Source: Odontesthes bonariensis
Taxonomy: Eukaryota > Chordata > Actinopteri > Atheriniformes > Atherinopsidae
Direction: 5' to 3'
Assembly (NCBI RefSeq): GCF_027942865.1
Contig: NC_134510.1
Span: forward strand, 38,956,686-39,020,685
DNA: 64,000 bases
Shown: positions 31,592 to 64,000 of the stretch, piece by piece
How positions within the stretch are numbered: the first letter of the stretch is position 1
How the letters are laid out: every line of letters starts with the position of its first letter
Position numbers and translations under genes: made by a program
Notes under the pieces: model-generated
The model's input: the letters and a program-made list of their open reading frames with translations, nothing else
Databases searched by the model: none
What the model was told of the DNA's origin: nothing

Positions 31592-34350
31592 ATGCCTCCT
31601 AAGACCGTGAGAAAGTGCGTGGAGCGCGCGCTGGACAACCTGTCCGCGACCAAATTGGATCGGTTCCGCAACGAGCTCGTGAAAAGAAAGCAGGAGCCGC
31701 GCATTGCGCTCAACAGGGTGGAGGGCAAACGATCCTGGGAAGTTGTAGGTGAGATGATCTCCACTTTTAAAGAGGATGGAGCTCTGGAAGTGACCAAGGA
31801 GCTGCTGGAGGAGCTCGAATTCACCGAGGACGCGGAGACTATGCGTAAGCATCCTAACATCTGGTTCGGTGCTGGAGCCGCGCATTGGCGCGCATTTCAT
31901 GCCGCAGGGAAACTTTAGCGTCAGTTCAGAGTCTGTAGTTCAAACTGCTGACATTTGTCCTGAACGATGCAGCCACGTTCTGTCATCATTCATCAATATT
32001 CTTTAATTAATTCCACGAAGTCGAACATTTAAAGATTTTAATGAAAGACTAAAGCGCGCTGCTTCATTTGATTTACTTTCGCTTTGACCCACATTTCCTG
32101 CTTTCAGGTTTGTTCCCCTTATGATACTATACCCTATAAGAATGTAGCTGTACCACAGAGACCCGAGTACAGAGATACAAAAGCATGATAATGGTGTGTG
32201 TGTGTGTAGTGGAAGAAGTAAACAGCCGCTGCGTAATCTCCCCAAACTCATTAAAAACGGCCACAGCGCACCAAGACTCAGCTGAGAAATATGCGCAGAG
32301 TTGGTTCAGCTGAGTCTGTAGCAGGCTCTGTCATGTTGGGCTGACACATCTGACACATCTGCTCAGTTAGGCTTGCCCTCTCAGTGATTCCTGCCTTATA
32401 AGGAAAGTGACGTTTCCGCGGTGTTACGCATGTTTGTGCACACGGGCTGTTGTTAGACTCTGAACTGAATCTGCGGAACTTGTCTTTTAATGCGCACTTA
32501 ACATCAGCTTTCCTGTGAAGGTATGTTTATATTCTTTCACATCTACCGTGGTGGTTTAATACTTTTTTTTTATTGTGAATGTTTGTCTAAAGGGGACTCG
32601 GACCGGGCTGAGTTTTAATCAGAAATAACCTCCCTAACCTCTCGATGGGCTAACATTTGACTTTATTTTATTTTTATTGCATTTTATTTAGGCTAGCTTA
32701 TATATATAGCCTAGTTATATTGGATTTTTTTTTTGTTATCCTTTTCAGGATGAGTTTTTAACTTGCAGTTTTAGTTGTGTCATCTCTGCTCTGCTGATTT
32801 ATTGTGTGAAGGATTTATAGTCCACTCTGTGTTTCCTGTGGCTCGGCTCTCAAAGATTAAAGTGCTTTAAATCCAGAAAACATACTTCATGCTGTTTGTT
32901 GCATGTTTTATTTGATGTAAAATGAAGATTACCTGCCACCAAAACAGAAAAGACAGGTCACACCATCACCTGGTTTGGTAACTTTTAGATTAAAAGGTGT
33001 TTAAATGATTTTAAATGCCATTTTAACCAACCCCAAACATCAGAGTCAGGGACTCCTTTCCTCTGGTGTTTTCCCTTTTGTAAAATCTCTGAACGTCAGA
33101 TTTGAACTGAACCTTATTCCTCAGAATCTAACTCTGTGTTTCTCTCATCTTAACAGTTAAAGAAGCGATGGAAGCTGGATATCGTCCACCTCCACCTGGT
33201 CAGTAGCAGTGACTCGTCCTTACCTCTTCTGTCATCACATCCAGAGGATCATATTTCAGTATCACAGCTTCTTACCTGTGCTGGAAAAATTTGAATTCCA
33301 TCTGATTTTAGAAGCTCTAACTCTTTTTCACAGCTGGAGGGGCTGCTGGGGCTCCGGCTGCAGGGGCTCAGGCTGCAGGTAAACTGTTCCAACGTCTTCC
33401 ATTTGAACAGGAGACATCACAGTTCAGCTGATGTTCTGCTGACCTTCAGAAAGTTCCTTCAAAAAGCATCACCTGCTTTAAATTTGGCTTCTACCCCCCG
33501 CTGCGCTCCTGCTACATTCAGAACAACTGAGCTTCAGACGTGGAGCCTTTAAAGATCAAACTCAGCTACAGCCAGTGAACCAGTTTCTGTCCCATGCTTG
33601 TATACAGGGACAGCCCAGTTGGGCTTAAAGGGACAGTTTGCCTCTTTAGACATGAAGCTGTATGACATCCCATATCAGCAACATCATTTATGAACATCTT
33701 CTTACCCCCTGCTGCGTCCTGTGAGCAGAGTTCCAGCCTCGTTTTGGTGCTGATGAAGGTAGTCCGGCTAGTTGGCTGGGGTTTAAAAAATAAAGCGTTT
33801 TGCTTCTCAAAACAATATGCGTTCAACAGAGTAATACATTTGCATCACAAAATGGTTCTCCAGGAAAAAGTCAGACCTCACAATGGCTTGGGCCTAATTT
33901 GTCTCCCTTCGTATCACTGCCTGCTGTGCAGACCGAGCAGCAAACACCGTAACAGGCGCGGCTGTCGGCAGATAGAAAATAGATGGATGGATCTTCAGTC
34001 GTTACATTTTAAAACGACCAAGAAGTTTTCTGCCTTTGGATTAAAAGTGTTGACCGAATCTTTTCTTTCATTTCTGTCTTTTCTCCACAGAGGAGCACTT
34101 TGTGGACAGACACATGGATGTGTTGATCCAGAGAGGGACCGGCATTGACGCCATTTTGGATGCACTCCTCAAGGAAAAAGTATTAAGTCCAGAAATATAT
34201 GACGATATAAGAAGTCAGCGAACCTCTCAGGCTAAGATGAGGGAGCTGTACAGCGGTCCCCTGAGAGCTGCAGAAGAAGTCAAAGATATCTTCTACCGAA
34301 TCCTGAAGGCCCAGCAGCCGCTTCTCGTCCAAAGCCTGGAAAAGAAATGA
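31592..34350 (+). CDS. pycard: ASC, inflammasome adaptor (PYD-linker-CARD), 4 exons
   Basis: The exons are 31592-31844, 33157-33198, 33334-33378 and 34091-34350. All are joined in phase 1 by GT-AG, giving 600 nt and 199 aa. Residues 1-84 are a pyrin domain (LDNLSATKLDRFRNELV; STFKEDGALEVTKELLEEL). Residues 85-113 are a flexible linker rich in Pro, Gly and Ala, encoded by two tiny exons. Residues 114-199 are a CARD (HFVDRHMDVLIQRGTGIDAI; LKEKVLSPEIYDDIRS; LYSGPLRAAEEVKDIFYRIL). ASC polymerises through its PYD on activated sensors and recruits caspase-1-type enzymes through its CARD, forming cytosolic specks. The size is close to zebrafish Asc. The start is the first ATG after the hAT insertion. 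The exon order PYD, two linker exons, CARD supports an intact gene. Confidence 0.95.
33625..33968 (+). mobile_element. Half copy of a long-palindrome MITE in pycard intron 3
   Basis: TTAAAGGGACAGTTTGCC through CCCTTCGTATCACTGCCTGC matches one arm of the complete palindrome at 47922-48574 almost base for base. Only one arm is present here. The mirrored ORF 33690-34148 is part of the arm and not a gene. Confidence 0.85.
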
Positions 34351-45087: not shown

Positions 45088-45560
45088 ATTACCAGAGGTG
45101 GGAGAAAGTCCCTATGTTGCAAGTCCAAGTAGAGTCTCAAGTCTTTGCTCTCAAGTCAAAGTCCTGTGATTTTTTTTTTCGATTCCCAACCAAGTCCTAA
45201 CAAATCGATTATAATTAATGATACGGATCATGACCACGCCTCAATTAAGTTGTTTATATTTTATTGTTAATGTTCTGCCACTTATTCATTTGTTTATTTT
45301 TATTAATATTGTGTTTAGATGCTTCGTCAATATAAGATCTGCCTTCTTGTGCCAATAAAGCTATTTGAAATTGAAAAAAATTGGGCGATATCTTTAGTAT
45401 CTTTTTTTTGTGTGTATTGGCATTAATTATCCAGCCAAGACTGATAACAGGAGTGCATTTGTAAATCAATAGACAATAGACTTTGGGAGGTATTTCTCCT
45501 TTTATTTCTACACAAACTTGCTGAAACTAGCCACGGCCCTGCCCACAGGAGGATGTTTCT
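45088..45560. other. No gene; degenerate MITE-like sequence
   Basis: 45090-45200 carries CAAGTC repeats like the hAT element in etv2 intron 6. The rest is AT-rich with no domain-bearing ORF. Confidence 0.45.
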
Positions 45561-45591
45561 CAGTTCCGCCATCTGGGCGTTGGTTTGAGGA

Positions 45592-45601
45592 GGAAGTGAA
45601 A
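45592..45601 (+). promoter_or_regulatory. EICE-like site (GGAAGTGAAA)
   Basis: GGAAGTGAAA is a perfect match to the ETS-IRF composite element GGAANNGAAA, used by PU.1 with IRF4/IRF8 in myeloid and B cells. It lies about 120 bp before a good splice donor (45713) that may end the first exon of the PYD array gene. A ten-base motif can occur by chance. Confidence 0.3.
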
Positions 45602-45619
45602 GTACTTTCAAAGCCCATA

Positions 45620-45712
45620 AACTCCCTGCTCTGGCTTTCAGAAGCTGGAGACGTGGCTGTGTTTCAGTCCTGAAGCAGAGTGCTGGCAGAGCTGCAGGGT
45701 TCCTCAGAGAAG
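45620..45712 (+). other. Candidate 5' UTR exon of the multi-PYD gene
   Basis: The stretch ends at CAGAGAAG|GTGAGC, a strong donor, and is the only convincing one between the Tigger element and the first PYD exon. No in-frame coding joins it to 46934. The 5' edge is unknown. The gap to 46930 holds a common repeat fragment (46146-46215) and a G+C-balanced stretch without domains. Confidence 0.3.
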
Positions 45713-46145
45713 GTGAGCGGCACACCTGCACACAGCACATCCCTGCAGCACCCTGAGGGAGCATCAGTGTCTGCTCACTTTCAGCTGGGCGCTCTGACTT
45801 CCTGTTTCCAGCCGTTTTTATTCCTGTGTGGAAACAGCTTACAGAAAGCCACTCTAACCAGTCTCAGTTCATTTCCTTCCGAGCTTCACAGGAAGGGTTT
45901 GAGTTGTTCATTCAGTACATTTTAGAAAGATTTAATCAGATAAACGCACACAGAGGCGCGCGCGCGCACAGAAACGCACTACGGAAGAAGAGGAAAGGAA
46001 ATATTTTATAGTTCGTTGTAAAAACAAATGAAATAACATCATTAACGTTAGTTCCAAATCTTTAAACGTGCGCAGGAACAAACTTTGGAGAGATCAGAGT
46101 CTGCTTTAGGCTGCAGAAACATTCCTTTCTGATGACACATCTCTC

Positions 46146-46933: not shown

Positions 46934-47861
46934 GTGGAAACTATGACGACTCAGAAGCTGCTTGTTGAAACTCTGAATCAGTTGAGTCCAGAGGAGTTTG
47001 ATGAATTCAAGTCACTCATTGGGACAAAGAAAGGTTCATTACTCCCCTGAAGGCAGCAAACCACCACCCCTGGGTAACTTAATTAAACAGAAAAAAGGGT
47101 GACAATGACAAGATCAGCCATCAGGGGGGACTGTGAGGTACAGTTTAGGAGAACGGCATTTGCACAGAAGGTCCTATCAGTCTTTGGTTGCTCTACATGG
47201 AACACAGTTCCGTTGGCCATAAGGGAAAATTCAACATATGTAGCTTTTAAGAAACAACTAAAAACATGGCTTACAGATAACCAGGACTGTAAACATGAAG
47301 GGTAGTTTTAGTTTTAGTTTTATCTTGTGATGTGGTTAAGTGATATGGAATGTTGTACGTTTTGTTTTCTTGTTTCCTATTTTTGTCTTTGTCTTGTCTT
47401 GATTTTAGTGTGAACAGCAGGACTGCAGATGGAAATTAGCCTTGGAGCTAAATCTGGCATATTTACATTGTATGTTTATTAATATGCAGAGTCCTGTCAC
47501 AAATAAACAAATAACTAACTAAACACGCAGGATGGCTTTCTGGAAGAAGATAATGACTGATCTGCTGCAGAGATTGTTGGGCGCTGACTCAGGAGCCAAA
47601 GGTGAGGCAACAAACGTACCGGAGCACTGCGTATATTTCAGAGCTTCACTTGGAAATTAAGGAGCGCATGAAGATTATTAAAGTGTTTCCATCAGATCTG
47701 TCACAGTTTAGCAGATTCCACACAAATACATTCAACAGCATTTAGCATGGTTTCACTTCAGGGTAAAATGTGTCGGATAAAAGCTGATAATGAACCAGCT
47801 GCTGACAGCTTTTATTCTGTCTCTTTCCTCCTCAGAGAAACGACCTGAGCGGAGCCAGAGA
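46934..47861 (+). pseudogene. PYD cassette 1, broken by LINE fragment
   Basis: After TTTTCCAG the exon starts [20 protein letters not shown], a normal PYD first and second helix, up to about 47033. LINE 3' sequence replaces the middle. The PYD end resumes at about 47532 ([11 protein letters not shown]) and stops at the usual phase-1 donor 47601. Reading straight through meets a stop at about 47050, and the apparent AAAG|GTTC donor does not restore frame. The linker exon 47836-47861 (EKRPERSQR) is the shortest of the set. The gene may now start in cassette 2. Confidence 0.8.
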
Positions 47862-50800
47862 GTGAGTAACATCACATCAGTCCACTGCACACAGTTCAGC
47901 TTTGAAACAGAGGATCAACACTTAAAGGGACAGTTCGCCTCTTTTGACATGAAGCTGTATGACATCCCATATCAGCAACATCATTTATGAACATCTTCTT
48001 ACCCCCTGCTGCGTCCTGTGAGCAGAGTTCCAGCCTCGTTTTGGTGTTGATGAAGGTAGTCCGGCTAGTTGGCTGGGGTTTAAAAAATAAAGCGTTTTGC
48101 TTCTCAAAACAATATGCGTTCAACAGAGTAATACATTTGCATCACAAAATCGTTCTCCAGGAAAAAGTCAGACCTCACAATCTCTTGGCCCTATTTTCTC
48201 TCCCTTCGTATCACTGCCTGCTGTGTAGACCCAGCAGCAAACACCGTAACAGGTGCGGTTGTCGGCAGGCGGCAGCAGGCAGTGATACGAAGGGAGAGAA
48301 AATAGGGCCAAGAGATTGTGAGGTCTGACTTTTTCATGGAGAACGATTTTGTGATGCAAATGTATAACTCTTTTGAACGCATATTGTTTTGAGAAGCAAA
48401 ACGCTTTATTTTTTAAACCCCAGCCAACTAGCCGGACTACCTTCATCAACACCAAAACGAGGCTGGAACTCTGCTCACAGGACGCAGCAGGGGGTAAGAA
48501 GATGTTCATAAATGATGTTGCTGATATGGGATGTTACACAGCTTCATGTCAAAAGAGGCGAACTATCCCTTTAAAGTCAGCGTCACCTTAAATTATTAAA
48601 GCTTTCCTCAGTCTAATTTAGCAAAGATCATCCTGAGAACACATTCTGAACACATGACTTCCTCATCATAATAACTAACGACACCATCATGGGGAAGTCT
48701 GCAGTGAGAAAGAAGAGCTTCACTTTGTTTGAGCTTCACTGACCAGAGTTCACATCCACACTTTGTGTCGTCTCTCCATCTGTTTTCAGTGACATTCATG
48801 TGATGATATCTTCATAAAGCTTCATCTGAACATCACCAGCTGCTAAAATATTCTGTCTTGAGTCCGTTGTCATGACTGTTCAGCTGTTCGGTTCAGCAGG
48901 AATCAGTTGAGGAGAAGATTCAGTTCAGCTGTGTTATCAGCAGATGTGCTGAGTTTTTCACTGTTTCTGGGCTCTGTCTCAGTTTTCCTTCCATAAATAA
49001 AGACACAGTGTAATATGTCATGTGTTGCTGTTCATCTGAGCTTGGATTCACCTCATTTTAGGCCCTGGATAGCACCAGATTACTTTCATCATGTCCTGAT
49101 ATGTAAAAGCTGGTGTGGTGGTCAGCACTGTCACCTCACAGCAAGAAGGTTCCTGGTTCAAATCCCAGCTTTCTGTTTGCATGTTCTCCATGTCTATGTG
49201 TGGCTTCTCTCTGGGAACTCTGGCTTCTTCCCATCGTGTCACAGCTGACGAATTGAACTGTGACTCATGAACGTTTTGTTTGAATTTACCAGGTAGAAAC
49301 GATGGAGTCCATTTTAGAGCTGCTGTTGGAAACACTGGCTGATCTGAGTGATGGAGAGCTCCGGGCCTTTAAGGACTTTCACAACCGTAACGACTCGGGC
49401 TTTGAGGACTTAAGTGAGCGTTACCTTTCCCTTTATTCAATGACCAACCGGATGTTCATGGAGATGACAGACCTGCACAACACAGTGTATTCAATGGTGC
49501 AGTTTTACGGCCAAAGGTCTGTGGAGGAGACTAAGAAGACTTTGATGAAGATGAAGAAGAAGGATCTGGTGCAGAGGCTGTCAAACCCCAAAAGTAAGAG
49601 AGTGAAAACGTGGAAATAAAAGAATTATAAATGTTTAGGAAATGAGCGGCAGGCCTGCTTCATTTGTGGGTTTAAAACAAGATGGTGAATGGGTCAGGAT
49701 ACAGGAAAGAGGATGATGAACCGTGAGCCGGTTTCTGAACAGTTGGTAGTCGGCTGTGTTTGGTGAGGCAGTTTAACACTCAGCTTTGCCATCAGTGTGA
49801 AATAAGAAATAAATCTCCATCAGAAGCAGAACGTGTGTCATAAGAAGGCTTTTATAAGTGGGCCTTTGATGGAAAAGATGGCCTTCAGATCTCAGAGGTT
49901 TCAGTTGAACGTTTGTTGACTTTGACCATCCTGATGAACAGTAATGAAATAGATAAAAGCCGATATGTGCAAACATCTGATCTCTCTGCGTTTATGTCTG
50001 GAATGTTCTAAACTCCCTCAAAACAGTGCTAAATAGTTAAAAAGTTCCAACTATAAAAGGTCAGCAAAGAAAGTTAAAAGGTGCACGTGCACCTCAGCAG
50101 AGGAAAATGTGTTGGGGAAGATGTCCACCTCCACCTTTCTGTGCTGACATTTTGTCACCTCTTAGCATCTTCATTTCCTTTTTAAGCTGCTTCTCCTGGT
50201 GTTTGAATTCTTTTCTTTATTTCTCCTCAGAAGAAAAGCTGCATGAGTGTCAGTCTGCTCTGATCCACAAAGTGAGTACTGTCTCACCTGTCTGACCCTG
50301 CAGAGCAAGGCCTTTATTCAAAAAGAGCCTAAAATCACGTTTTCATCATGCATTTTGGATGGTTTTCACAGAACTGAGTTCGACTTTAAAGTAGGGCTGT
50401 GACTCGATTAAAATTTTTAATCGAGTTAACTACAGGCTTTGAAATTAATTAATCGCAATTAATCGCATTTTAATCGCATATACTTTATCCTTTAGAAAAT
50501 TAACATTTTCAACAATATTTCAACAAACACAGAACATATCCCTATTTGAAATCTGAATGTAGCATGCATGAAAACACAGTATATAGAATCTTGGATGTTA
50601 AGCTGCGTTGGGCCCCTGTTAGCTACCACGCTAGCTGCTACATGTTTAGCGTTGAGGTGATATTGAGGTGATATTGAGCCAATTTTTACAATACGCTGCG
50701 GTGATACGCGAATTCCTTGTTGCATAATCTGCAAACAACCACGCTCTTGTCGACGCTTCCATCCGTCTGTATTTAAAAAAAAAAAAAAAATTATAGTGTG

Positions 50801-53800
50801 CGATTAAAATGCGTTATTTTTTTTAACGCGCTTATAAAGCTTTAAAGCTTTTTCTTTTACACATGAAACTAGATTAAATAAGAAGGATTTGGTTCATATG
50901 TTTCTGCTACACTGTGCTGCTGGCTTAAAGTGAATTATTGAAGAACATTTGGTGTTCAGGTCAGTTTTGGTATCACTATTAAAAAGTTCCACCCTGAAAA
51001 CACTGTTAATACTAAAGATGAATTCACCTACGTGCTGTATGTTTGTTCATCTTTTGCTCTGTAAAGATGCTTCAGTTATTTGTGTTCTCCTGAGAGAAAA
51101 ACATCTTTAAACATCCAAAGGTCTGAAGTAATGACATTGAAAGATAATATATTAGGATAAACTACAACACCGTCTGATTCTCTGTGAACTAAATCGATAT
51201 TTTCCTCTGAAACACTGTTGGTTTTCCAGATGGCAGCCATGTTAGCTGTGAAACAGCTGCTTTTGGACACACTGATGGAGTTGAAGGGTGATGAGCTCAG
51301 TAGATTTAGGTGGTTTCTACATTTGACCCAATTCAAGATGGATCTTCCACAAATCCCATGGAGCCAACTGAGCTGTGCAAACAACAGCTACATAGTGGAT
51401 CTGATGGTGAATATATACGGTCAACATTATGTGGAGGTGACCCGGGAGACCTTCATGGATATGAACAGGACTGATCTGGCACAGAGGCTGCCAGAGAGCA
51501 GCTTTGGACCCAAAGGTACAGTAAACATCTTTCTCAATAATGTACTGTATCATGATAAATACAGGGGTACTTGAAAGTTTATGAACCTTCTTAAATTTTG
51601 CTGTTTAAATAGACTTTAGTAGCATTATAACTCAATTTAACATCACATCTCCACACAAGCTGTGACAGCAGATAAAGAAAAACTGATGAAACAAAGTAGA
51701 TGAGGCCACAAAATTCTGTTTATTTACAGCTTCCACGGGAATTAAGAGGGTAAGAAGCAGCCAGGAGCTGCTGATCAATGCACTGATTAATTGATCATCA
51801 GTCAGGAAAGACATCAGCACTGATCTTAGAGAAGCAGCTGCTGCTGCCCATCAATCTGGGAAAGGTTATAAGGCCGTTTCCAAACTATCTGGAGTCCATC
51901 ATTCTACAGAGAGAAAGATTATTCACAAGTGGTGTAGGTGCAAAAGTCGACTAGCAGATATTCCTGGCTTACACGTGTTCAAAAAACTGTTGTCCTTAAA
52001 AATCCACATGAAGTCCAGGTAACGTTAGAAAAAACATAGAAATTTATTCCACAAGTGTCACTCAAGTATCCATACACCTGGCTTTCAACACAATATAGGA
52101 CGGAACACGGTAAAAAACCGTGTGTCTCCACTGCTGGTCTGACGTTCACAACACAGGTGTAACCTTCCAGCCTCTTAAAGTTACAGTACCGCCAGTATTA
52201 AACTTAAATTAAATAGCCCGTACTAAACAGAAAAGATGAACAAACAGCCATATTCAATAAAACTTTCTCATCAATGACTATTAGACCAATATTCAAACTT
52301 AAGAATAAAGAACATAAAGTTAAATTACATAAGCAGAAATAAGAAATCTGCAAATCTGTATGTAGGAGCCATAATTATTTTCTTTATATTTTTTGTTTTC
52401 ATTATGGTACACTTTATGGTTATTGGTTCACTTTGATTTGTGTTTTTGTTTATTGGTTATCATTGGACATGGGTGTGACACTGGGCGTGTGTGGTGCGCA
52501 ATTGGAAGCCCTTTATTAGCCCTACCTGGCACCTGTGCGCCAGTTCAGTTTGGCGTGGGGTGAGTAAGGGGGAAGGCTATCCTTTTGCGCACCGCATCGC
52601 ACTTCTCACATCGGATGGACTAAAAGCCTTTGTCTCAACGTTTCTGCTCTATCTTGCAATTGGAAAGGACTTTTGGAGTCTGAATGATATGGAGAGCAAT
52701 AAACGGAAGAAACCGGAATGAGTGTGTGGACATTACATCATTGAGTACGCGTAAGACAACTGATTTCCCCCTGCTTAGCCCACAGCGGCGCTGAACTAAT
52801 TGGTGTTGGATCTAGCCGCAATACTGTACTTGCCTCATACAAGTGGAAAACATTCAGGACAGCTGTCAATCTTTCCAGGAGTGGACGTCCCAGCAAGGTC
52901 ACCCGAAGGTCAGAAACCCAAGAGCTACATCTCAGACTCTGCAGGCCTCAGTTAGCATGTTAAAGTTCACCCCAAGGTCAGAAACCCAAGAGCTACATCT
53001 CAGACTCTGCAGGCCTCAGTTAGCATGTTAAAGGTTACAGATCACCCCAAGGTCAGAAACCCAAGAGCTACATCTCAGACTCTGCAGGCCTCAGTTAGCA
53101 TGTTAAAGGTTAAAGTTCACCCCAAAGTCAGAAACCCAAGAGCTACATCTCAGACTCTGCGGGCCTCAGTTGGCATGTTAAAGGTTAAAGGTCACCCCAA
53201 GGTCAGAAACCCAAGAGCTACATCTCAGACTCTGCAGGCCTCAGTTAGCATGTTAAAGCGGGCACACCTGTGCACGAGAGAGAAGCCACCACAACGAGTG
53301 AACGCTGGCGCGATTTGCTGCCGCTGCTCGCCGGTAGGCCTACTTGCTGCCCTACTGCCGCTGCTCGCCGGTAACTTTTAAAGTTTTAAAACTCACCTGG
53401 AGCCTTTTTTCTGGCCGTCTACGCTACCCGAGCCCTCGTCAATAATGTGGACCGGTAGGACATACATCCTGCGTCTGGCTCCTTCTACTGCCCGTTCACC
53501 TGCAAGTGGCGGGTCTGCTACAGTACTCGGCCACTGACCTGCTCCAGCTGCGCTGTCACTCGCCTGGACCCGCGCCAGAGGCACTCCACCTTCACCCGAT
53601 CATCATCTTCCAGCCTCGCCGGAGATACATTCACCGAGGGTCCCGCCGGGATTTCCAACACAACAGCTCAACAGCAATAAAATCCATCTGGTCCAGCTCT
53701 CGACGTCGCCCTCCACGCTCCACCAGCCAGGCTGTCGACCACAGCGTGTTAGCCCGCCTAGCTCGGTCGGCTAACACCACCATCAGCTGCGACAACACCT

Positions 53801-56800
53801 CACTCAACTTTGGATTACTCAACATCCGCTCACTGACACGCAAGGGACATCTCATCCAGGACCTCATCACCGACCGTAAGCTAGACTTTCTTTGCTTAAC
53901 CGAGACATGGCAACAGCCCCAAGACTATTCTCAGTTGATTGAATCCACTCCAAGTGGGTTTGTTTACAGCTGTCAACCCTGTGTCTCTGGCCGGGGAGGA
54001 GGCCTCCCGATAATCTATCGCGAGAACTGTAAAGTCTCGCCGGTGCCCGTGCCAGTCTCTAGCTCGTTTGAGTCCATTGTCTGTCAGTTGTCTGGTCCCA
54101 CTCCAACCATTATTGCCACTGTCTACCGCCCCCCAAAACCGAAAAGTGACTTTTTAAATGATTTTACTGCTTTTCTCACACATCTATCCTCTCTCTCACC
54201 AAACATAATACTGCTGGGTGATTTTAACATCCACATGGACAATACCAATCTGCCTCTCACCAAAGACTTCACTTCCTGTTTAGATGGTTCTGGATTTCAG
54301 CAACATACCACTATTCCCACACACTCCAAAGGACATATTCTGGACTTAATCTGCTGCTCTGGTGTCACCCCTCTCAACATAACAGCTGATGAACTCCCCA
54401 TAACTGACCACTTTCTCCTCTCATTTACAGTGAAGCTCACTCTCTCAATCGCTAAAACACCACGCCTCATTTCTTTCCGAAACATAAAGAACATTAACCC
54501 CTCCACTCTCACTGCAAGTATCCACTCTTCATGCCTCCTCGATATCAACAATCTGTCCACCCCCGATGACCTGGTCTCTCACTATAACACTGGTCTCCAT
54601 AAGATTCTTGATTCTCTGGCTCCACTGAAAAACCGATCTGTCTCCTTCACCATCTCCGCCCCCTGGTTCACCCCCGATCTCCGACTCATGAAAGCCAAAG
54701 GACGACAACAGGAACAGCTTTACAGAAAAACTGGTCTCACTATTCACAAAGAAATATACAATAACCACATCTTACAGTATAAGGACTTCATTGCCAGCAC
54801 CAAATCACACTACTACTCCAGCCTAATCACTGCCAATCAAAGCAACTCTAAGTCACTTTTCTCCCTACTCAACAATACCACCAAACCCCAGGACTCTCTC
54901 CCCCCTCACCTCTACACAACCTCATTCTGCAATGCCATCATGTCATTTTTCACAGAAAAAATCAAGAACATCCACCAGAACCTCGGATCAATACCTCACC
55001 TCAGCACCCCAGTCGACCTTCCCCCACCTACACACTCCCTCTCCTCCTTCCATCTCCCCACTCTCTCAGAAATCACAGAGCTCATCCAGAAATCCAAACC
55101 ATCCACCTGTCAATAAGACCCCCTCCCAACCCAACTTGTCAAAACATGCCTCCCTTCTCTGGTCCCTCTCATCTCCGCAATCATCCACACCTCCCTCACC
55201 ACTGGAACTGTCCCTACACCTTTTAAAACTGCAGCCATTACCCCAATTGTAAAAAAAACCTGGTGCTGACCCCTCCAACTTCAACAACCTCCGTCCTATC
55301 TCCAATCTACCCTTCATTTCCAAAATCCTCGAAAAAACAGTTGCCTCCCAGCTCCATTCTCACCTATCCCACAACAATCTGTATGAACAGTTCCAGTCCG
55401 GTTTCCGCCCACTCCATAGCACTGAAACAGCACTCATCAAAATCACCAATGACCTCCTCATGGCATCTGAATCTGGACTACTCACCATCCTCATCCTCCT
55501 CGACCTAAGTGCAGCCTTTGACACCATCTGCCACACCACCCTCCTCAGCAGGCTATCTTCCATTGGCATCACCCACACTCCCCTGGACTGGTTTACCTCC
55601 TACTTCTCTGGCCGCACTCAATTCATTCAACTCAAGACCCTCAAATCAACTCTCTCCCCCGTCACCTCAGGTGTGCCCCAGGGCTCTGTCCTGGGGCCCC
55701 TCCTCTTCATCATCTACCTCCTTCCCCTTGGCAATATCTTCCGCAAATTCAACATCCACTTCCACTGCTATGCTGATGACACCCAGCTCTACCTCACCAC
55801 TAAACCTTCGTCCTCTCTCCCGCCCACCTCCCTCACTAATTGCATATCTGAAATAAAAGCCTGGTTCACCCAAAACTTCCTCAAATTAAACAGTAGCAAA
55901 ATGGAGGTTCTCCTCATTGGCACAAAATCCACTCTATCCAAAACCAACAGCTTCCCACTCACTATTGACAACTCCTCCGTCTCACCCCTCCCCCAGGTTA
56001 AGAGTCTGGGCGTCATCCTGGACAGTACACTATCCTTTCAATCCCATATCAATAACATTACCCGGTCAGCCTACTTCCACTTATGAAGCATCAACCGCCT
56101 CCGCCTCCGCCCCTCCCTTACCCCTCACACTGCTGCCATCCTTGTCCACAGCCTCGTCCCCTCCCGCCTGGACTACTGTAACTCTCTCCTCTTTGGCCTC
56201 CCTCAAAAATCACTCCATAAACTTCAACTGGTCCAGAACTCAGCTGCCCGCATTATTACAAGAACCCCCCTCTATCCACCACATCACCCCTGTCCTCAAA
56301 CAGCTCCACTGGCTCCCTGTTCAGTTCCGTATTCAATTCAAAGTTCTCCTAGTAACATTCAAGGCCCTTCACAATCTCGCCCCCCCATATCTGTCAGATC
56401 TCCTCCATGTTTCCACCCCCTCCCGCTCTCTCAGATCCTCTTCTTCCACACACCTGTCTATCCCCTCCGCCCGTCTCACCACCATGGGCAGCGGAGCATT
56501 CAGCCGCTCTGCCCCCCGCCTCTGGAACTCTCTACCACCCCTGCTCAGAAACACAGACACACTCCCCCATTTCAAATCACAACTCAAAACTCATCTGTTT
56601 AAAACTGCCTATTCCATCTGATACAATTCCCTGCCCCCTTTTTTGTTGTAAAAGATTTTCTGTGTTTTATTAATTTTATTGATTTCTGGTGTTTTACTTC
56701 TTTTAATATTGATGTGTTTTATTTTGATGTTTTTTATCCACTTTGTAAGGTGACCTTGAGTGTCCAGAAAGGCGCCTCTTTAAAAATAAAATTTATTATT

Positions 56801-59800
56801 ATTATTATTATTAAAGGTTAAAGGTCATGACAGCACAGCTAGAAACAGGCTGAACAAGTATGGTTTGTGTGGAAGGGCTGCAGGAGAAAGCCTCTTCTCT
56901 CTAAAGACAAATGATGTTTGGTCATAATGCACAGCAGCACGTTTGGATGGTGGAAAGTATCTGCAAAAACATCATAAAAGAACTGAGAATAGATGAAAGC
57001 TGCACACCAGCAGTCCAATCATGAGGTAACCAGCTTTCTGAAGAAGAAGGCGGTTTTAGAAAGAAACAGAAAAACAATCCTGACAAAGATCTGTGTTTTC
57101 TCTCAAAGGAACGTGCTTCCTCCTGCTTTCTTTCCTTGTGGGAGGGATGTGGGTAATCTAAAGATTTAACAGTGTTCATTTAAATATGTTCTGAGTATAA
57201 CACCTGCTGCTGAATCAGTAACTTCTGAATCTTTTCTCCTCAGAGAAACACGCTGGGGGTGAATGTTTTCCTGCACTGATCCACAAAGTGAGTCTGACTG
57301 CAGTTCATTTGGCTTTCACTGAATAGATGTTACACACATTATCTTTGGTTCCAACATGTCCAGCTGAAATAATCTTTCTCCGTCTGCATTTCTAAAACAT
57401 GAATGAGAAGTAAAAAGACAGATCAGTTTAAATCACAGCTGATGACTGAATTAAACAACATTTCCTTTGAATTACCAGATAAAAACGATGGAGTCTGTTA
57501 CAGAGCTGCTGCTGGAAAAGTTGGCTGAGCTGAGTGACCGTTCGCTCAAAGACTTCTGGATCACATTTAGTAAAACTCAACAAGTCGGGCCTCATTATGT
57601 AAAACCATGGACGCCGCTGGATGTGCCAAACATACAGGATTTGGTGTTTTCAATGGTTCAGACTTACGGCCAACAGGCGGTGGAGGAAACTGAGAAGATT
57701 TTACAGGAAATAAAGAAGACTGATCAGCTGGCAGAATCCAGCTTTGGGCCAGAAAGTAAGACAACAAAGACAAAACATGTGCAAATCATAAAACTTTGCC
57801 ACTCACAAGTGTCTTTTGTGTCTTTTCCTCCTCAGAGAAACTCTCTGTGGGTGAACAGCGAGGTCTGATCCACAAAGTGAGTAACGTGACATCAGTCTGA
57901 CTCAGAACGTGACGGCTTTCATTCAGCAGATGCAGGCTGAGTCCTCACACTGAACATGTTACTGATTCAATGCAAACACGTGTTTAATGCCGGATGTTTG
58001 TAAGGAGCACAGGAGGAATGAATCGAGGGATAGAAATGAATTACACAACCTTAACTCATTGGCTGCCAGCCATTTTCAGTGCAGAGAGACCCATACTGCC
58101 AAGTGTTTTTCAGTATTTTGACTGATTTTCCAAGACCCACAGAAAAGTGTGTCTTATGACTTTGTACACACCGAAATTACCAAAAGAAAGAGTAGACTCT
58201 CTTCTTTCATCAGGAAAAATGTTTGTTTCTACCATTTTCAGTCCTTTAGTAATAGACAGTAGAACATAGGTTGGTTTCACCAAAAACAGCTGTTTGACCA
58301 AAAAATGGAGAAAACAAGCTTTTTGTGCAAAGAAACCTGTCAAGCAGAACAGTGACTTTGATGCTAACATTTTTTGCTTTAGTGACACCTCAAACATCTG
58401 AAAAGTGGTTTCCTTCCATAAAACAGCAAAAACAACACTGAGAAGGTATTTTGATAGCATAGCATTGTCTGAGTCATCAGAACTGTCTGGTGGTGCGCTC
58501 CGCTGAGGTGAAATACGAGCACGCCGACGACTCTCTCCGCTTGGCCCGGGTATCTCGTCGGTGGATAGTAGTGGTACACTACTTCTGCTGCACAGAAGGC
58601 TCTGTTCGAGCGTTAGCTGCCTAAATTTTTTGTTTTTTTGTATTTTCTCATTCTCCGATCTTGGCAATTATAGTTTACAAACATTTTGATTAGTCTCATT
58701 GGCTTCAAAGCCGCTTCAGTCTTCTTCTACAATCTATGTGATCTTTACTCATCTCCCATCCAAAGTAAGTAATTTTGCCAGTATATTCTCTGTTTAGTGT
58801 TTACAAGCCTAAGATTTAGTGACAAACTCTGCTAGATTGTTCCCCAGCCTCCGTTAAAAAACGCAATTGAAGTCTATAGACGTCTTTGGCAGTCAATGAG
58901 TTAAACACAGACACAGATATGAGATCCTGTTATGGATTTCTGTGTTTACACTCTCAGAAATAGGGGTACAGTACGAGTCTTTTTTTTGTCCCCTGAGGTA
59001 CAATCTATACTAATGTACCCCCTAGGGTTAATTATTGGACCTAAAAGTACATATATGTATCTTTTTGAGGGTCCAAAAGGTACATATATGTACTCAAGTG
59101 GTAAAAGGTACATATATGTACCCCAGCATGTTTTCTACATGCTGGGGTACAATAGACAGTCTGTGTTAGGCTACTTCAGTATAAGGGTACAGAACTATAC
59201 CTTCTGAGGGTACTGCCCCAGGGACAAGCCATCGTACCCCTAAAGGTACAATTCTGTACTTTAGTTTCTGAGAGTGAAGCAGCAATAAACATTGAGAGCT
59301 GCAGGCTGTAAATAAAATCATTTTAAGAAGCTGAAGGAGGAAAAGTTCATTTTTCCTCCTCTTGTCATTTTTCAGCCTGTTTTGCTGATGATCAGAAACA
59401 GTAAACAGCCCTCTGTAGTCAATCCTGCAGCATGTACCAAATGCATCGGGGCCGTGTGTGATCTTGCTGACATGTTTGTAACCGTCTCAGTGGGTTGAAT
59501 ATCTGTCTCATGCATGTACTGACTGTTCCAGGTGGCAACGGTGGCAGCTGTCAAACAGCTGCTTTTAGGGACTTTGAATGATTTGAGGCCTGAGGAGCTC
59601 CTGAAATTCAGAAGACTTCTGGTGTCGGTGACCTTCCTTACTTTTGGTTCAGACTTTTCGAGTCGTACAGAAAGCAGCACAGGCACAGTGGATGTGATGG
59701 TGATGGAGTTTGGACAGCAGTCTGTGGAGTGGACCCGAAAGGTTCTCGAGTACCTGAACAGAACCGATCTGGTCCAGAGGTTCTTGGAGACCAGCTCAGC

Positions 59801-62800
59801 ACCAAACAGTAGGACAATAACAACAGAAATCTGAGAATGGATGCTAACATTTGGGTGATAAACTCAGTAAGATTTGTAATGTTGAAGAAAGACGTCTGCA
59901 CTGGAAAAAATCTAAATCTTACCAAGTATATTTGTCTCATTGAGTATCCCATTACACTTAATATCAGACACAACTGCCTAACAAGCACCATTTCAGCCAG
60001 ATATAGGGACTTGTTTTAATACAATACATCTGGAATATCTTGTTAAGTGAAAAAGTCTTGAAAACATATTGTTTTGAGTCATATTTCACATGAAACAAGC
60101 TTTTTCTTTTCATTTGAAGAGGTTTTTAAGCTAATTTCAAGGTAATTTTTATCTCAAAATTCCTAAATATCACATCTTATTTCAAGAAATCTTGACAAGC
60201 CGAAAATTGGCTTGTCAAGATATTTAGGCAGATTTTTTGCTTATTTCAAGCAAAAACATCTTGTATTTGTTGTTTTTTTTTACTTATTTTTGGAGGGGCA
60301 TTTTTTCCAGTGTGTTTTCCAGTATTTATATTATGAGTCAAAGGAAAGAAAATGGCGGTGTGAGTGTCAGTGTTGGGGCTGTGAGACACAGCTCATATCC
60401 TTTATCATTGCTGAGAAGGTTCAAATTGAGTTTTGTTTAGTTGTACAATCATGCTTCTGATACAAAGAGTTAAGATATAATTATGAAATCAGTTGTTCAC
60501 GAGTGTCTTTTGTGTCTTTTCCTCCTCAGAGAAACTCTCTGTGGGTGAACAGCGAGGTCTGATCCACAAAGTGAGTAACGTGACATCAGTCTGACTCAGA
60601 ACGTGACGGCTTTCATTCAGCAGATGCAGGCTGAGTCCTCACTCTGAACATGTTACTGATGCCTCCCTTTGACCCGCCGTGAAAGAGTTGCAGTCTGTAA
60701 CTTAACAAAATAACCGTGTCTCAGCATCTAAAAGAGAAGGAAAAGGACTCGTTGTTTTGTGTAGAATTTAGTTTGATGTTAAAAAACGTAATGAGACAAA
60801 TAGATCAATATGTTCTGTTCTATGTACATATACACACACACACACACACATATAAATAATGGATGTACTGACTGTTCCAGGTGTCATATCTGACAGCTGT
60901 GAAACATCTGCTTTTGGAAACTCTGAATGATTTGAGCGACGAGGAGCTGAAGAGATTCGAAGAGTTGATGATCTCTCGGGAGAATCTCTCACACATGTTA
61001 TGGACATCGCTGCCTGCAGACAGGTTACTTATAGCTTATGTGATGGTGGAGGAGCTGAACCAGCAGTCTGTGGAGGTGGTCAGTGAGACTCTCATGGAGA
61101 TGAAGAAGACTGATCTGGTGCAAAGACTCACAGACAGAAGCTCAGTACTCAAAGGTAAGCTGAACTAGTTCAAACTGGATCATCACCTGTACTAAACAGA
61201 AGAAACGAGGTTCATAAAGCTGTACGGAAATATCTGACTCACGTCTCCTTGTTGCTCAGTGTTTTTAGCTGGATTCTTTAGTTCTGCATGTATAATGTGC
61301 ATGTTTAACTTTGACCAAAGACGACTCCATCTGGATGTGAGATGACATCATAATTATCTGTTTTTTCTCAGAGGAACTCTCTGGGGATGAGCATGGAGCT
61401 GCGCTGTTGAAGGCAGTAAGTGTGACATCACAGCTTTCATTCAGCATGAAAATCAATCTCACCTTTAACATTTTAAATGAGGCCGCAAACAAAACTCGTG
61501 TTTGAAACTAGACGACTCTTAAAGTTTCCAGTCTGAGGCCACGGTCCAAAGCAGAGAAGAGTGGATTTCCCGCTCCGTGTTGGGAGTGAGTCGCTGCCTG
61601 GAGTAGAGGAGTTTAAGTATCTCTGGATGCTGTTTAAGAAGCGGGGTAGAATAGAGCGTGGGATTGTCAGACAGATCAGAGGCCATGATCTGTGGGACCA
61701 AATGAATTAGATTCCAATCACAAGCAGCTGAAATAAGCTTTCTTGGAAGGATAGAAACCTTTCAGGCGTATAAGAGATTCTCGGTCAGACTGAGGTCAGG
61801 GCTTTGACCATCATTCCAAGAAGTTCAAACTTTCCATGAAACACTTGTTTCTGTAGCGGTGTGATTTGAGTCATCATGCTGAAAAGGGAACCTCAGCTTT
61901 TCCTCAACAGTTTACCTGCATTTAGCCTGATGAATCATTCCTTCAGTCATGACCACATTCCCAAGCCCTGCCAAACAGCCCACAGCATGATTGTTCCACC
62001 ACCGTGCTTTACTGTGCTGATGTTATTCTCAGGGTGCTGACTTTGTACCATGTGGTGTTTTTCTTTGATCCATCTTAATTCTCATGTTGCCAGAGGACCT
62101 TCTTACCCATTTTTGAGGAGTCTCCCAGATGCCTTTAGGTGAACTCTAAATATTCTATCTTCTTTTTTCTGAGCACTCTTTCATAAAGTCCATCTTTGAG
62201 GAGTGTGGGACATACCAGAGTCCTGTGGACAGACGCTCCATTGATGCTTTTTCGAGTCCCTGCGTGTCCCTGGTTGAACACTTTGTTGGGATGGCCTCTC
62301 TTCTCTGACAGGTGTCATCCCTTCCTGCTGTTGATGCTCTTGTCACACCTCTGAGTGCCCTGAAACAACAGGAAATCTTGTGCACACCAGGGAGAAGGCT
62401 TTGTTTACACTGGATCTGTCGGAGGTGTAATTATTGACTGTGAAATCAGAACTGAGCCGTCACTTTTGGAACCTTAGTTCCTTCTGATCTGACTCGGATG
62501 AGGAAGGGTCCCTTGATCCAGAGAGGAGGGGATCATACCATGTTGAAGTCGTGTTTTCCAGAACTTTCCTAATGAACATGACCCGTCTCTCTGAAGGTCT
62601 GCATCCAAGCTGTCGACAGAAGGACAAATCTCTGGCTCATGTAATGCACTCCTGACACATCTCCAGTGAGACAGGAACTCCCTCAGGCTGGTTCTGGTTG
62701 TTCAAAGCGAAGCAGAGTCATATGCTGTGTTCGAAACCGCATACTACAAACTACATACTTCCATACTACATACTACATACTGCATACTGCATACTACATA

Positions 62801-64000
62801 CTACATACTACATACTACATACTCATGGATCAGACAGTATGCAGAGCGTTTACCCACAATGCATTTCGCTCCTGCCCGAGCCGAAATCAGCCGGCCTGAA
62901 GCTGATTTCTCTTAAGCTATAAACTCTGTAAACTTTAGCAACATTTGAAACATTTTCAGGTGAGAAAGTAGTCGTTTAGATCCCCAACGTGTTGAAAACC
63001 TGACAAAATACCGGCTGTTTACAATTTTGTTCCCACGAATTCGGCGCTACTAAAGCTAGCCGCAGTGAGCAACGCACTTCCGGTTATTTTCACAAAATAA
63101 AATACCCGTTGCCTTTTATCATAGGGAAAGCCATTACGATACAATTGGTGCTTTTGTTTTGAAAACAGGAAGTGAACCTACCCTCGTTGTAGCTAGCTTG
63201 AAACTGCCATTTTCACAGGAAATGACGATCGGCGACGTCACGTTACGTTGCATCTTGGGTAGTTTGAGTATGAGTAGTAACCTCATGATGCATACCCAAC
63301 ATTTCGGAGAATCTAGTATGCATCCGGGAACTTCTCGCTTCCTCAAACTCGCATACTAACTCAAAAAGTTAGTAGGAGAAGTAGGAGAAGTATGCGGTTT
63401 CGAACACAGCCAAAGACTTTGTTAGATTATTATGCAAAGGGCCCTGAGGTGTTTGTTTGATTGTAAACTGGTTTTATCTGGATAAAACTAAGGTGATTGA
63501 ATTCAAAGTTGTTAACAGAAGAAAACCTGAGAATGAACGCTCTGGGATTAATCACACCTACCAGCTAAGGCAGCGGGAACTCAGGGCCCTGAAACACCAG
63601 TCAGAGAATCAGCTGTTGGGAATGTTGGTGTTTTTTATGGACATTGGTCATCATGCAAACATTCAGATTAAAACACTGATACTGATAAAATGTGAAGAAA
63701 TGCAGCTTTAACTTTGCCATCTGAGAAAATGCACCTTTAAGAATGAATTCTTTGTTTTTTTCAGATAGCAGCAGAGACAGCTGATAAACAGATTCTTCTG
63801 GAAACTCTGAAGAGTTTGAGTAAAACAGATCTTTTAAAATTCACATGGTTGCTGGAGCTGACATGTTTCCAGAGGGGCGTCCCACAAATCCCTCACTATA
63901 AGCTGGAGTACCGTCTCATGACAGCTGAAATGTTGAATCTGGTGGTGGTGGAGCTTGGCCAGCAGTGGGTGGAGGTGACCAAAGAGGTTTTCATGGACAT
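46934..64000 (+). CDS. Tandem pyrin-domain gene: seven PYD plus linker cassettes (runs off window)
   Basis: A two-exon cassette repeats. A PYD exon of 274-301 nt (phase 0 start, phase 1 end) is followed by a linker exon of 26-44 nt (phase 1 to 0). Intact PYD exons are 49293-49593, 51230-51515, 57479-57755, 59532-59808, 60881-61154 and 63765 to beyond 64000; a broken one starts at 46934. Linkers are 47836-47861, 50231-50271, 57244-57287, 57836-57876, 60530-60570 and 61372-61415. Because each cassette is symmetric, any number can be joined or skipped in frame. The joined product would be a chain of PYDs of about 92-100 residues with linkers of about 9-15. No NACHT, LRR, CARD or caspase sequence is seen before 64000. 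It could be a free-standing multi-PYD protein or the N-terminus of a larger sensor. The PYD calls are firm; that it is one transcript is inferred. Confidence 0.75.
47034..47525 (+). mobile_element. 5'-truncated LINE 3' end inside PYD cassette 1
   Basis: The ORF 47099-47305 has [16 protein letters not shown] and FKKQLKTWL, the tail that follows the reverse transcriptase in L2/CR1/RTE-like fish LINEs. It ends in an AAATAAACAAATAACTAACT tail. It replaced about 35-40 codons of the PYD. The exact left edge is uncertain. Confidence 0.7.
47922..48574. mobile_element. Long-palindrome MITE (arms about 315 bp)
   Basis: TTAAAGGGACAGTTCGCC at the left mirrors GGCGAACTATCCCTTTAA at the right. The arms match nearly completely to a short central loop near 48240-48255, so a transcript would fold into a hairpin of about 315 bp. 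Mirrored ORFs 47987-48328 and 48168-48509 result from this symmetry. It lies in the intron between cassettes 1 and 2. One arm alone recurs in pycard intron 3. Confidence 0.92.
49293..50271 (+). CDS. PYD cassette 2 (A-type), exons 49293-49593 and 50231-50271
   Basis: After ATTTACCAG the exon reads [20 protein letters not shown], with an ATG at 49302 that could be the translation start now that cassette 1 is broken. It has the helix-2 GELRAFKDF, an extended loop, and the final [20 protein letters not shown] block. The donor is AAA A|GTAAGA. Linker exon: [14 protein letters not shown]. At 301 nt this is the longest PYD exon because of a longer loop between helices 2 and 4. Without splicing at 49594 the frame would stop at 49619. 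Confidence 0.85.
50395..50850. mobile_element. hAT-like MITE remnant (AATCGAGTTAAC / AATTAATCGCA)
   Basis: TAGGGCTGTGACTCGATTAA opens a sequence rich in TTAATCGCA, related to the subterminal parts of hAT copies A-D. It ends near TTTTTTAACGCGCTTATAAAG. It lies in the intron between cassettes 2 and 3. Confidence 0.6.
51230..51515 (+). CDS. PYD cassette 3 (B-type), PYD exon
   Basis: After TTTTCCAG the exon reads [20 protein letters not shown], then [11 protein letters not shown] and the classic [10 protein letters not shown] loop before helix 3. It finishes [17 protein letters not shown] and [17 protein letters not shown]. It is the most canonical PYD of the array, with the IP and W-S-L features of NLRP and fish caspase PYDs. 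Its linker exon, 57244-57287 ([15 protein letters not shown]), lies 5.7 kb away because transposons fill the intron. Donor G|GTACAG. Confidence 0.88.
51933..52838 (+). mobile_element. Unclassified 906-bp insertion with 8-bp duplication ACAAGTGG
   Basis: It interrupts the Tc1-like transposase exactly at CACAAGTGG; ACAAGTGG occurs at 51925-51932 and 52839-52846. It begins TGTAGGTGC and ends GCCTCAT, with AATAAA at about 52699. It could be a solo LTR of an unusual retroelement, but the terminal CA is missing. It has no TIR I can find. Short ORFs inside lack domains. Confidence 0.6.
52900..53258 (+). repeat. Tandem repeat of about 68-77 bp, five copies, grown inside the Tc1-like sequence
   Basis: GGTCAGAAACCCAAGAGCTA, CATCTCAGACTCTGCAGGCC and TCAGTTAGCATGTTAAAG recur five times, with variable GGTTAAAG spacers. 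The unit is a piece of the Tc1-like transposase gene. Confidence 0.93.
53506..55116 (+). pseudogene. LINE AP-endonuclease ORF
   Basis: Residues about 105-315 form an APE-type endonuclease: [17 protein letters not shown] (catalytic Glu), [17 protein letters not shown] and the final ITDHFLLSF with the catalytic Asp-His. It nicks target DNA for reverse transcription. The ORF stops at STCQ just where the reverse transcriptase should begin. Confidence 0.88.
55255..56086 (+). pseudogene. LINE reverse-transcriptase region (broken)
   Basis: After the frameshift the frame reads [24 protein letters not shown] (catalytic Asp), [14 protein letters not shown] and YADDTQLYL with the YADD box at 55769-55780. 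A TGA at 56084-56086 truncates it. The tail domain ([37 protein letters not shown]) follows in two frames. It is not functional as it stands. Confidence 0.85.
57479..57876 (+). CDS. PYD cassette 4 (A-type), exons 57479-57755 and 57836-57876
   Basis: After ATTACCAG the exon reads [20 protein letters not shown], then the short helix-2 [10 protein letters not shown] and the ending [20 protein letters not shown]. It lacks the usual LVQR at the end of helix 6 ([11 protein letters not shown]), so the last helix is shortened. The linker exon [14 protein letters not shown] lies only 80 bp away and is identical base for base to the linker of cassette 5, including flanking intron sequence. Confidence 0.85.
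58055..58900 (-). mobile_element. piggyBac-type element, TTAA duplication
   Basis: TTAA at 58051-58054 and 58901-58904 flanks inverted ends CTCATTGGCTGCCA and TGGCAGTCAATGAG, as in piggyBac. The minus-strand ORF 58110-58667 begins [15 protein letters not shown] and has an acidic [11 protein letters not shown] stretch, like a piggyBac transposase N-terminus. The catalytic domain is missing; the rest of the ORF is non-coding interior. It lies between cassettes 4 and 5. Confidence 0.8.
58949..59276 (+). mobile_element. MITE (TIR CACTCTCAGAAA), short 328-bp copy
   Basis: This is the compact form of the element that, in etv2 intron 3, has nested into itself and expanded. It has both TIRs and TA at the left (58947-58948). 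It carries only about three GTACATATATGTA motifs with CTCAAGTGGTAAAAG spacing, the apparent seed of the 28-bp minisatellite. Confidence 0.88.
59532..60570 (+). CDS. PYD cassette 5 (B-type), exons 59532-59808 and 60530-60570
   Basis: After CTGTTCCAG the exon reads [31 protein letters not shown] and a loop without the IP motif. It ends [20 protein letters not shown] and [14 protein letters not shown]. The donor AAC A|GTAGGA is weaker than the others. Linker exon [14 protein letters not shown] is identical to that of cassette 4. Confidence 0.85.
59899..60312. mobile_element. MITE (TIR CACTGGAAAAA), cassette 5 intron
   Basis: CACTGGAAAAAATC and TTTTTTCCAGTG are inverted ends. An inner palindrome AATCTTGACAAGCC ... 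GGCTTGTCAAGAT lies at about 60188-60222. It carries no ORF of note. Confidence 0.75.
60881..61415 (+). CDS. PYD cassette 6 (B-type), exons 60881-61154 and 61372-61415
   Basis: After CTGTTCCAG the exon reads [31 protein letters not shown] and a short loop. It ends [20 protein letters not shown] and [14 protein letters not shown]. The upstream intron block of about 40 bp (ATGTACTGACTGTTCCAG) matches that of cassette 5, so 5 and 6 are recent sisters. Linker exon: [15 protein letters not shown]. Confidence 0.85.
61690..62700 (-). mobile_element. Decayed DNA-transposon-like sequence
   Basis: This long stretch has blocks familiar from dispersed fish elements (CCAAACAGCCCACAGCATGA, TTCCACCACCGTGCTTTACT, CTGACAGGTGTCATCCC). 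No intact ORF is seen on either strand, and I cannot assign the family. It lies between cassettes 6 and 7. Confidence 0.4.
62724..63410. mobile_element. MITE (TIR GCTGTGTTCGAAACCGCATACT), complete copy
   Basis: The 22-bp ends are perfect inverted repeats. Near the left end ATACTACATACTACATACTG-type decamers are tandemly repeated (62745-62823). The right half is found rearranged at 36294-37190. It has no coding content; nearby ORFs are frame artefacts. Confidence 0.85.
63765..64000 (+). CDS. PYD cassette 7 (B-type), cut by window end
   Basis: After TTTTTTTCAG the exon reads [32 protein letters not shown] and a loop [10 protein letters not shown] that restores the IP motif. It then runs [20 protein letters not shown] to the last base. 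Sequence and loop are closest to cassette 3. The exon, its linker and any further domains lie beyond the window. Confidence 0.85.
   Translation, partial: MAAETADKQILLETLKSLSKTDLLKFTWLLELTCFQRGVPQIPHYKLEYRLMTAEMLNLVVVELGQQWVEVTKEVFMD

Follow-up and report, generated by a model that had tools for sequence, protein, structure and literature searches.

A predicted gene that joins a string of pyrin domains to a FIIND and a CARD beside pycard in the fish Odontesthes bonariensis

What would a protein do with six or more pyrin domains (PYDs) strung together? The question is raised by a locus of Odontesthes bonariensis in which PYD exons follow one another next to pycard, the gene for ASC. The window, meaning the whole stretch analysed, is 64,000 nucleotides long and occupies C6:38956686-39020685 in a 945 Mb genome (C6 being contig NC_134510.1). 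Window numbering is also used for genome DNA past position 64000, and the DNA examined beyond the window comprises 200 kb downstream, a further 16 kb and a separate 40 kb stretch. A sequence-only reading had described seven PYD exons and six short linker exons in alternation, suggested that the product seeds ASC filaments or acts as a decoy, and advised looking downstream for further domains. The next 12.4 kb carry them, in the form of a FIIND (ZU5-UPA) and a C-terminal CARD. The predicted architecture, (PYD-linker)6-7 - FIIND (ZU5-UPA) - CARD in one protein-coding gene, is one that we hold to be very probable. Three further copies of it lie on C6 in a span of 350 kb. We call the copy in the window A and the others B, C and D.

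The array of copy A was delimited with a local profile made from the PYDs of the window. Between 46.9 and 64.0 kb it finds seven plus-strand PYD exons, six of them full-length and one truncated. The intact exons are PYD2 (49293..49593), PYD3 (51230..51515), PYD4 (57479..57755), PYD5 (59532..59808), PYD6 (60881..61154) and PYD7 (63765..64053, with its last 53 bases past the window). Against the Pfam PYRIN model (PF02758, cut-off 22.9 bits) they score 25.8, 65.9, 32.4, 30.1, 37.4 and 30.8 bits, respectively, PYD7 being scored on its window part. All six pass, so the majority of sub-threshold units feared in the sequence-only reading is not seen. Six plus-strand linker exons of 26-44 nt alternate with them: linker 1 at 47836..47861, linker 2 at 50231..50271, linker 3 at 57244..57287, linker 4 at 57836..57876, linker 5 at 60530..60570 and linker 6 at 61372..61415. 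AG acceptors and GT donors are present in 12/12 of these exons. The PYD exons are entered in phase 0 and left in phase 1, the linkers are entered in phase 1 and left in phase 0, and every intact cassette is 0/0. Both the alternation on one strand and the symmetric cassettes with conserved splice sites are therefore borne out for the intact units. Since each intact cassette is symmetric, exon skipping is possible. The Pfam scores, the fit of the phases and the three further copies together make a chance origin of the array unlikely. A profile of the six PYDs, the PYD at 15.8 kb and the pycard PYD matches the solved PYDs of ASC, NLRP6, AIM2 and others. The six PYDs are all acidic (pI, the isoelectric point, 4.7-5.5); the ASC PYD of the same genome has a pI of 7.2.

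The seven PYD exons first counted are six intact ones and a first unit that is broken in this copy. Its first part (46934..47050, plus strand) has a frame that stops after 38 codons with no donor there, and the first 37 codons score 19.1 bits, below the PYRIN cut-off. By comparison with copy B, the exon is interrupted at 47062..47525 (approximate, plus strand) by an insertion together with an adjoining deletion. Positions 47061 and 47534 of copy A equal 110308 and 110374 of copy B, with about 470 bases in A against about 65 in B. Part of the insert resembles, by eye, the end of a non-LTR retrotransposon frame, and no second copy of the insertion appears in the 280 kb + 40 kb of DNA compared. 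Intact PYD1 paralogues, two in copy B and one in copy C, all exceed the PYRIN cut-off (3/3, 44-46 bits).

From the end of PYD7 at 64053 to the start of the ZU5 exon at 65063 is 1.0 kb, and the frame is continuous across two short exons, linker 7 (64627-64661) and a second one immediately before ZU5 (64787-64860). There follow the ZU5 exon, which is the first part of the FIIND (65063-65277), three UPA exons (65372-65625, 67875-67991 and 69246-69399) and a CARD exon with the stop codon (76188-76450), all on the plus strand in the gene model. The FIIND cut-off (PF13553, 25.8 bits) is exceeded by the ZU5 exon at 85.7 bits and by the first UPA exon at 31.7 bits. The latter also scores 31.9 bits with UPA-FIIND (cut-off 27), for which the last UPA exon stays under the cut-off at 21.6 bits. 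The middle UPA exon has homologous frames in B, C and D. The CARD scores 55.6 bits. A genome search matches FIIND at all four copies. In that search, the FIIND matches of A and C each include one stop. The modelled exons contain none, and in A the match overshoots the modelled end of the exon by about 30 bases. When spliced from PYD2 to the stop codon, the 18 exons make 3,027 nt and 1,008 residues with no internal stop, and 17/17 introns have AG/GT borders. That the PYDs are covalently linked within one gene, as first proposed, is thus well supported by the single open frame, the phases and the frame-keeping copies.

Among structures in the PDB, CARD8 is a relative of the two FIIND halves, with E 3.4e-5 for the first and 2.1e-5 for the second; the corresponding values for NLRP1 are 6e-5 and a weak 0.034. 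The relatives of the CARD are rat NLRP1, which is best, ASC and a zebrafish GBP (4irl). An array leading into NACHT-LRR exons is not seen in the 1.0 kb between PYD7 and ZU5, the absence of NACHT resting on the gene model. We also considered that the CARD at 76190 might be a stray ASC exon, as 6.8 kb separate it from the last UPA exon and it is ASC-like (52% identical to the ASC CARD). This was rejected because copy D has a CARD 94% identical to it in the same place, and because the cluster's other three ASC-like CARDs and that of ASC, which are 78-89% identical mutually, are only 52-55% identical to it.

The four copies differ in their distance from one another. Copy B, on the plus strand from ~108.8 kb, and copy C, on the minus strand at ~251-277 kb, are for the most part 96-99% identical to copy A; some blocks are lower, such as 88% over the start of the B FIIND. 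There are no stops in PYD1 to UPA1 of copy B (17 exons) or in PYD1 to UPA3 of copy C (19 exons). Copy D (C6:39302114-39336295) is divergent. It has at least six PYDs, a minimum since they were counted from 39300686 onward, followed by a FIIND and a CARD. These PYDs are above the PYRIN cut-off in 6/6 cases (28.9-56.3 bits), and 18 exons of 3,012 nt make one frame of 1,003 residues with one terminal stop. In a tree of PYDs, D2 goes with PYD3 (0.81), D4 with PYD5/6 (0.89) and D5 with PYD7 (0.81), while D1, D3 and D6 group with PYD2/PYD4 (0.85). Since D2, D4 and D5 follow the order of A, a tandem array probably predates the split of A and D, across which paired PYDs have diverged to a synonymous difference (pS) of 0.42-0.55. 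The 350-kb stretch as a whole accounts for 31 of the at least 66 PYRIN matches listed for the genome, which is a lower bound, and for 4/16 of its FIIND loci above cut-off.

Linker 5 is identical to linker 4, and the two sit in 164-bp stretches (57803-57966 and 60497-60660) that cross-match both of the corresponding copy B linker segments at 97.6% and 100%; the identity suggests a recent duplication or conversion within the array. The intron between PYD3 and linker 3 holds ~3 kb of retrotransposon-like open frames (53446-56600, by eye) that the B and C alignments skip.

Among A, B and C, exons of unequal length are seen at five places, and the difference is 3 or 6 nt each time (5/5 multiples of three). 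Pairwise intron gaps are divisible by three in 12/56 cases, a count that excludes two of the 15 introns and uses the first alignment of each intron. The ratio of non-synonymous to synonymous change (dN/dS, Nei-Gojobori) in the PYDs is 2.38, 2.03 and 2.14 for the three pairs (p 0.042, 0.086 and 0.033). For the same pairs, the FIIND exons give 0.39, 0.27 and 0.35; here the short exon upstream of ZU5 is counted in, and the last two UPA exons are omitted from the pairs that involve B. The rate counts exclude linker 2 and the broken PYD1 of A, with PYD1 included in dN/dS for the B-C pair. When PYD2-7 are pooled, the non-synonymous rate is 0.065 versus a synonymous rate of 0.031 (p 0.022) and an intron rate of 0.025 (p 1.6e-10), and the synonymous rate does not differ from the introns (p 0.40). 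The p-values are guides, as these are three sequences with shared branches. The PYD protein sequence thus changes fast while the FIIND is constrained.

The changes are located mainly in the middle of the PYD. With the helix borders of human ASC, 101/165 changed positions fall from α2 through α3. Per aligned positions, there are 29/232 changes in α2, 45/228 in the α2-α3 loop and 27/111 in α3, and 4/228 in α1, 23/212 in α4, 20/266 in α5 and 0/86 in α6, with residues that face a gap scored as changed. The three pairs compared are interdependent.

What might such a protein do? Because FIIND and CARD exons follow the array, the likely role of the gene shifts from the one first proposed to that of an autoinhibited sensor like NLRP1 or CARD8. 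The array is real, but with a FIIND-CARD tail behind it the product would not simply be an ASC seed or a free decoy. The FIIND of CARD8 and of NLRP1 cleaves itself into two parts that remain joined, and UPA-CARD is set free once the N-terminal part is degraded (PMC10249858, PMC11760013). Both are described as having a positively selected, fast-evolving N-terminal tripwire ahead of FIIND-CARD (PMC10249858). The self-cleavage residues of CARD8 are H270, E279 and F296|S297 (PMC8081665, PMC3210808). Aligned with them in copy A are a His, a Glu at +9 and a Phe|Thr at +27, which are the same in copies B, C and D. Threonine can act in comparable N-to-O shifts of other self-cutting domains, so self-cleavage of the FIIND would be plausible.

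By analogy, the FIIND would cut itself at PSF|T, after which the PYD-ZU5 half would hold UPA-CARD inactive. The PYDs would be bait, attacked by pathogens as if they were those of ASC or of a receptor, whether by cleavage, binding or tagging for degradation. Destruction of the PYDs by the proteasome would free UPA-CARD, and the freed part would assemble through its ASC-like CARD and activate a caspase. We regard an autoinhibited sensor of the CARD8/NLRP1 type, with the PYD array as its fast-evolving bait, as a reasonably probable account of the whole and the best one available. The parts do not all share that standing. Autoinhibition and release of the FIIND type is slightly favoured. The proposal that the PYDs are bait and not an ASC-binding scaffold is tentative. 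The most specific version, in which a diversifying string of PYDs serves as sacrificial decoys wired by a Thr-nucleophile FIIND to an ASC-like CARD, is speculative and on the doubtful side. If true, any factor that cuts, sequesters or degrades the PYDs would trigger cell death, the number and surface of the PYDs would be an evolving recognition repertoire, and copies without a CARD would tune that repertoire.

Several observations weigh against this account or the gene model beneath it. Based as they are on genomic sequence, the splicing, the start codon and the number of PYDs are predictions, and so is expression. The middle UPA exon of A was chosen by eye and its acceptor is weak, and two linkers of copy D were chosen solely for phase fit and are uncertain. 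An ATG lies near the start of PYD1-4, and PYD5-7 of A are without an early ATG. The nucleophile is Thr and not Ser in 4/4 copies, and a paralogue on C24 (L045) has F|S at the cut site. The individual tests of dN/dS in the PYDs are modest. If PYD2, the fastest-changing unit, is omitted, the non-synonymous rate of 0.047 is not significantly above the synonymous 0.031 (p 0.28), although it is still significant versus introns (p 2e-4). Sequence exchange between copies is evident and could disturb the rate comparisons: the ZU5 and CARD of A and D have synonymous differences of only 0.04 and 0.03, and UPA1 of copy B is D-like, 0.05 from D and 0.43 from A. Finally, searches with phmmer and tblastn gave no match to an own CARD of copy B in 57 kb from its last UPA exon, and none of the A/D type in 62 kb past copy C. 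Those 62 kb hold just two ASC-like CARDs, 51-55% identical, the one on the same strand being ~44 kb away. Consequently, only A and D are complete.

The strongest competitor, though an unlikely one, makes the array a signalling scaffold that nucleates or caps filaments of the ASC PYD, with FIIND-CARD as a second contact to ASC or a caspase. The PYDs of ASC and NLRP6 form filaments, and their solved structures are matched by the array profile. The gene adjoins pycard, and the resemblance of its CARD to that of ASC fits as well. However, the acidity of all six PYDs differs from the ASC PYD, the fastest change from α2 through α3 is odd for a surface required to match ASC, and the FIIND would be superfluous. 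The contrast between changing PYDs and a constrained FIIND, together with the acidity, is what makes bait or tripwire the better fit and leads us to rank the bait-and-trigger sensor first and the ASC-binding scaffold second.

A further reading, which we consider quite unlikely, would have the PYD exons be alternative cassettes, one or a few being used at once, to give a set of isoforms and not a protein with six or seven PYDs. It draws on the 0/0 units, any intact one of which could be skipped without a frameshift, and on the ATG near the start of PYD1-4. No mark of mutual exclusivity was met, no test aimed at exclusivity having been made.

Less likely again is a cluster in decay that segmental duplication expanded not long ago, some of its copies having hardly any function or none. 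The broken PYD1 of A, the retrotransposon-like insert in its intron and the failure to find own CARDs for B and C in the DNA examined all point that way. Against decay stand the modelled exons of A (from PYD2), B, C and D, which have no stops other than the terminal ones of A and D, the length differences that are all multiples of three, and a FIIND under constraint. That each PYD is a separate gene, as the early ATG in several PYD exons might suggest, is very improbable and was rejected, since a single frame runs through the exons from PYD2 to PYD7 and those of FIIND-CARD, its first stop being at the end of the CARD, and all four copies place the PYDs ahead of the FIIND.

The bait-and-trigger sensor can be set against several known systems. 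Like CARD8, copies A and D have FIIND-CARD without NACHT-LRR, similarity of the FIIND in Pfam and the PDB, the His, Glu and Phe of the self-cleavage site and a fast-changing N-terminal part (for CARD8, PMC10249858). Unlike CARD8, they have six or seven PYDs in place of a disordered tripwire, and F|T in place of F|S. Human NLRP1 (PYD-NACHT-LRR-FIIND-CARD) has an N-terminal PYD and a C-terminal FIIND and CARD as here, and the best PDB match of the CARD is rat NLRP1, but NLRP1 has one PYD and not many, and the gene model here has no NACHT or LRR between PYD and FIIND. A FIIND and CARD are described for fish NLRP1 as well (PMC12436146). ASC shares PYD and CARD, is encoded by the neighbouring gene and has a CARD 52% identical, but it is an adaptor and not a sensor, with one PYD and no FIIND. 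PYD-only proteins differ in having a single PYD alone, with neither the FIIND and CARD nor the six PYDs found here. CARD proteins of the zebrafish GBP type also carry a FIIND. They resemble the present gene in placing a C-terminal CARD on an unrelated N-terminal module (Gbp4, PMC4932187), and the CARD here is similar to 4irl, but that module is a GTPase and not PYDs. The zebrafish NLR-B30.2 family is another case of fish immune genes with single-exon N-terminal repeats and exon shuffling; there, short peptides of ~30 residues are repeated on NACHT proteins, whereas here PYDs are repeated on FIIND-CARD (PMC4852459). A round goby paper reports PYD plus CARD in 20 cases. In the literature searched, which was mostly open-access text, neither a tandem-PYD protein nor one with PYD-FIIND-CARD was found, and unnamed predicted proteins of this type may already be present in databases. 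Within that literature, PYDn-FIIND-CARD appears to be a previously undescribed form of FIIND-CARD sensor.

So far, what precedes the FIIND-CARD trigger is mainly known to be a disordered bait or an NLR. With several PYDs in front, the trigger would look like a portable module to which hosts couple whatever pathogens attack, and the locus would be an example of PYDs with one fast-changing side joined to a constrained trigger. Decoy-type sensing of anti-inflammasome factors would become directly testable in fish. A natural covalent string of PYDs also offers a model for filament nucleation and capping.

The surroundings of the array include a probable control region. A block at 45542..45768 (plus strand), with a putative exon end at ~45712 and a gtgagc donor, recurs upstream of copy B (99.1% identity) and upstream of copy C (97.9%), and a third matching block is at 219 kb (97.8%). 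It is probably the promoter and 5' non-coding exon of the array gene. An IRF-like motif, AAGTGAAA, is present at 45594 in copy A and also in copy B.

The position of the array beside pycard is confirmed. The pycard gene is at 31589-34347 on the plus strand, outside the array gene, with a PYD exon at 31589..31915 (PYRIN 32.0 bits) and a CARD exon at 34054..34347 (CARD 51.5 bits). An ASC-like PYD open frame lies at 15739-16122 (+; PYRIN 60.1 bits), and CARD searches find none between it and pycard at 31.6 kb. It is a candidate for a PYD-only gene or an ASC remnant. Two further ASC-like pairs of PYD and CARD are at 91399-91569 (-) with 83036-83284 (-) and at 222302-222523 (+) with 226810-227055 (+). 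Hence pycard appears to have multiplied within the cluster.

Other FIIND loci are found outside the cluster, and 4/12 of these have a same-strand PYD 5-16 kb downstream (FIIND/PYD at C16:24951466/24967473; C16:35832932/35839971; C16:9387848/9382785 on the minus strand; and C28:4583320/4588398, L042). These are possible FIIND-PYD genes in which a PYD replaces the CARD. The C24 paralogue mentioned above (L045, C24:20885300-20886200) has, by eye, the FIIND nearest to that of the multi-PYD family among the others fetched. It keeps F|S at the cut site, with a CARD ~2.7 kb downstream, and may show the ancestral source of the family.

Elsewhere in the window, an open frame at 11672-11983 (+) resembles by eye the end of an ETS-family DNA-binding domain. 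There are also two tandem arrays, one at 4665-7051 with ~85 copies of a 28-base unit and the other at 40650-44593, between pycard and the multi-PYD gene, with ~306 copies of a 13-base unit.

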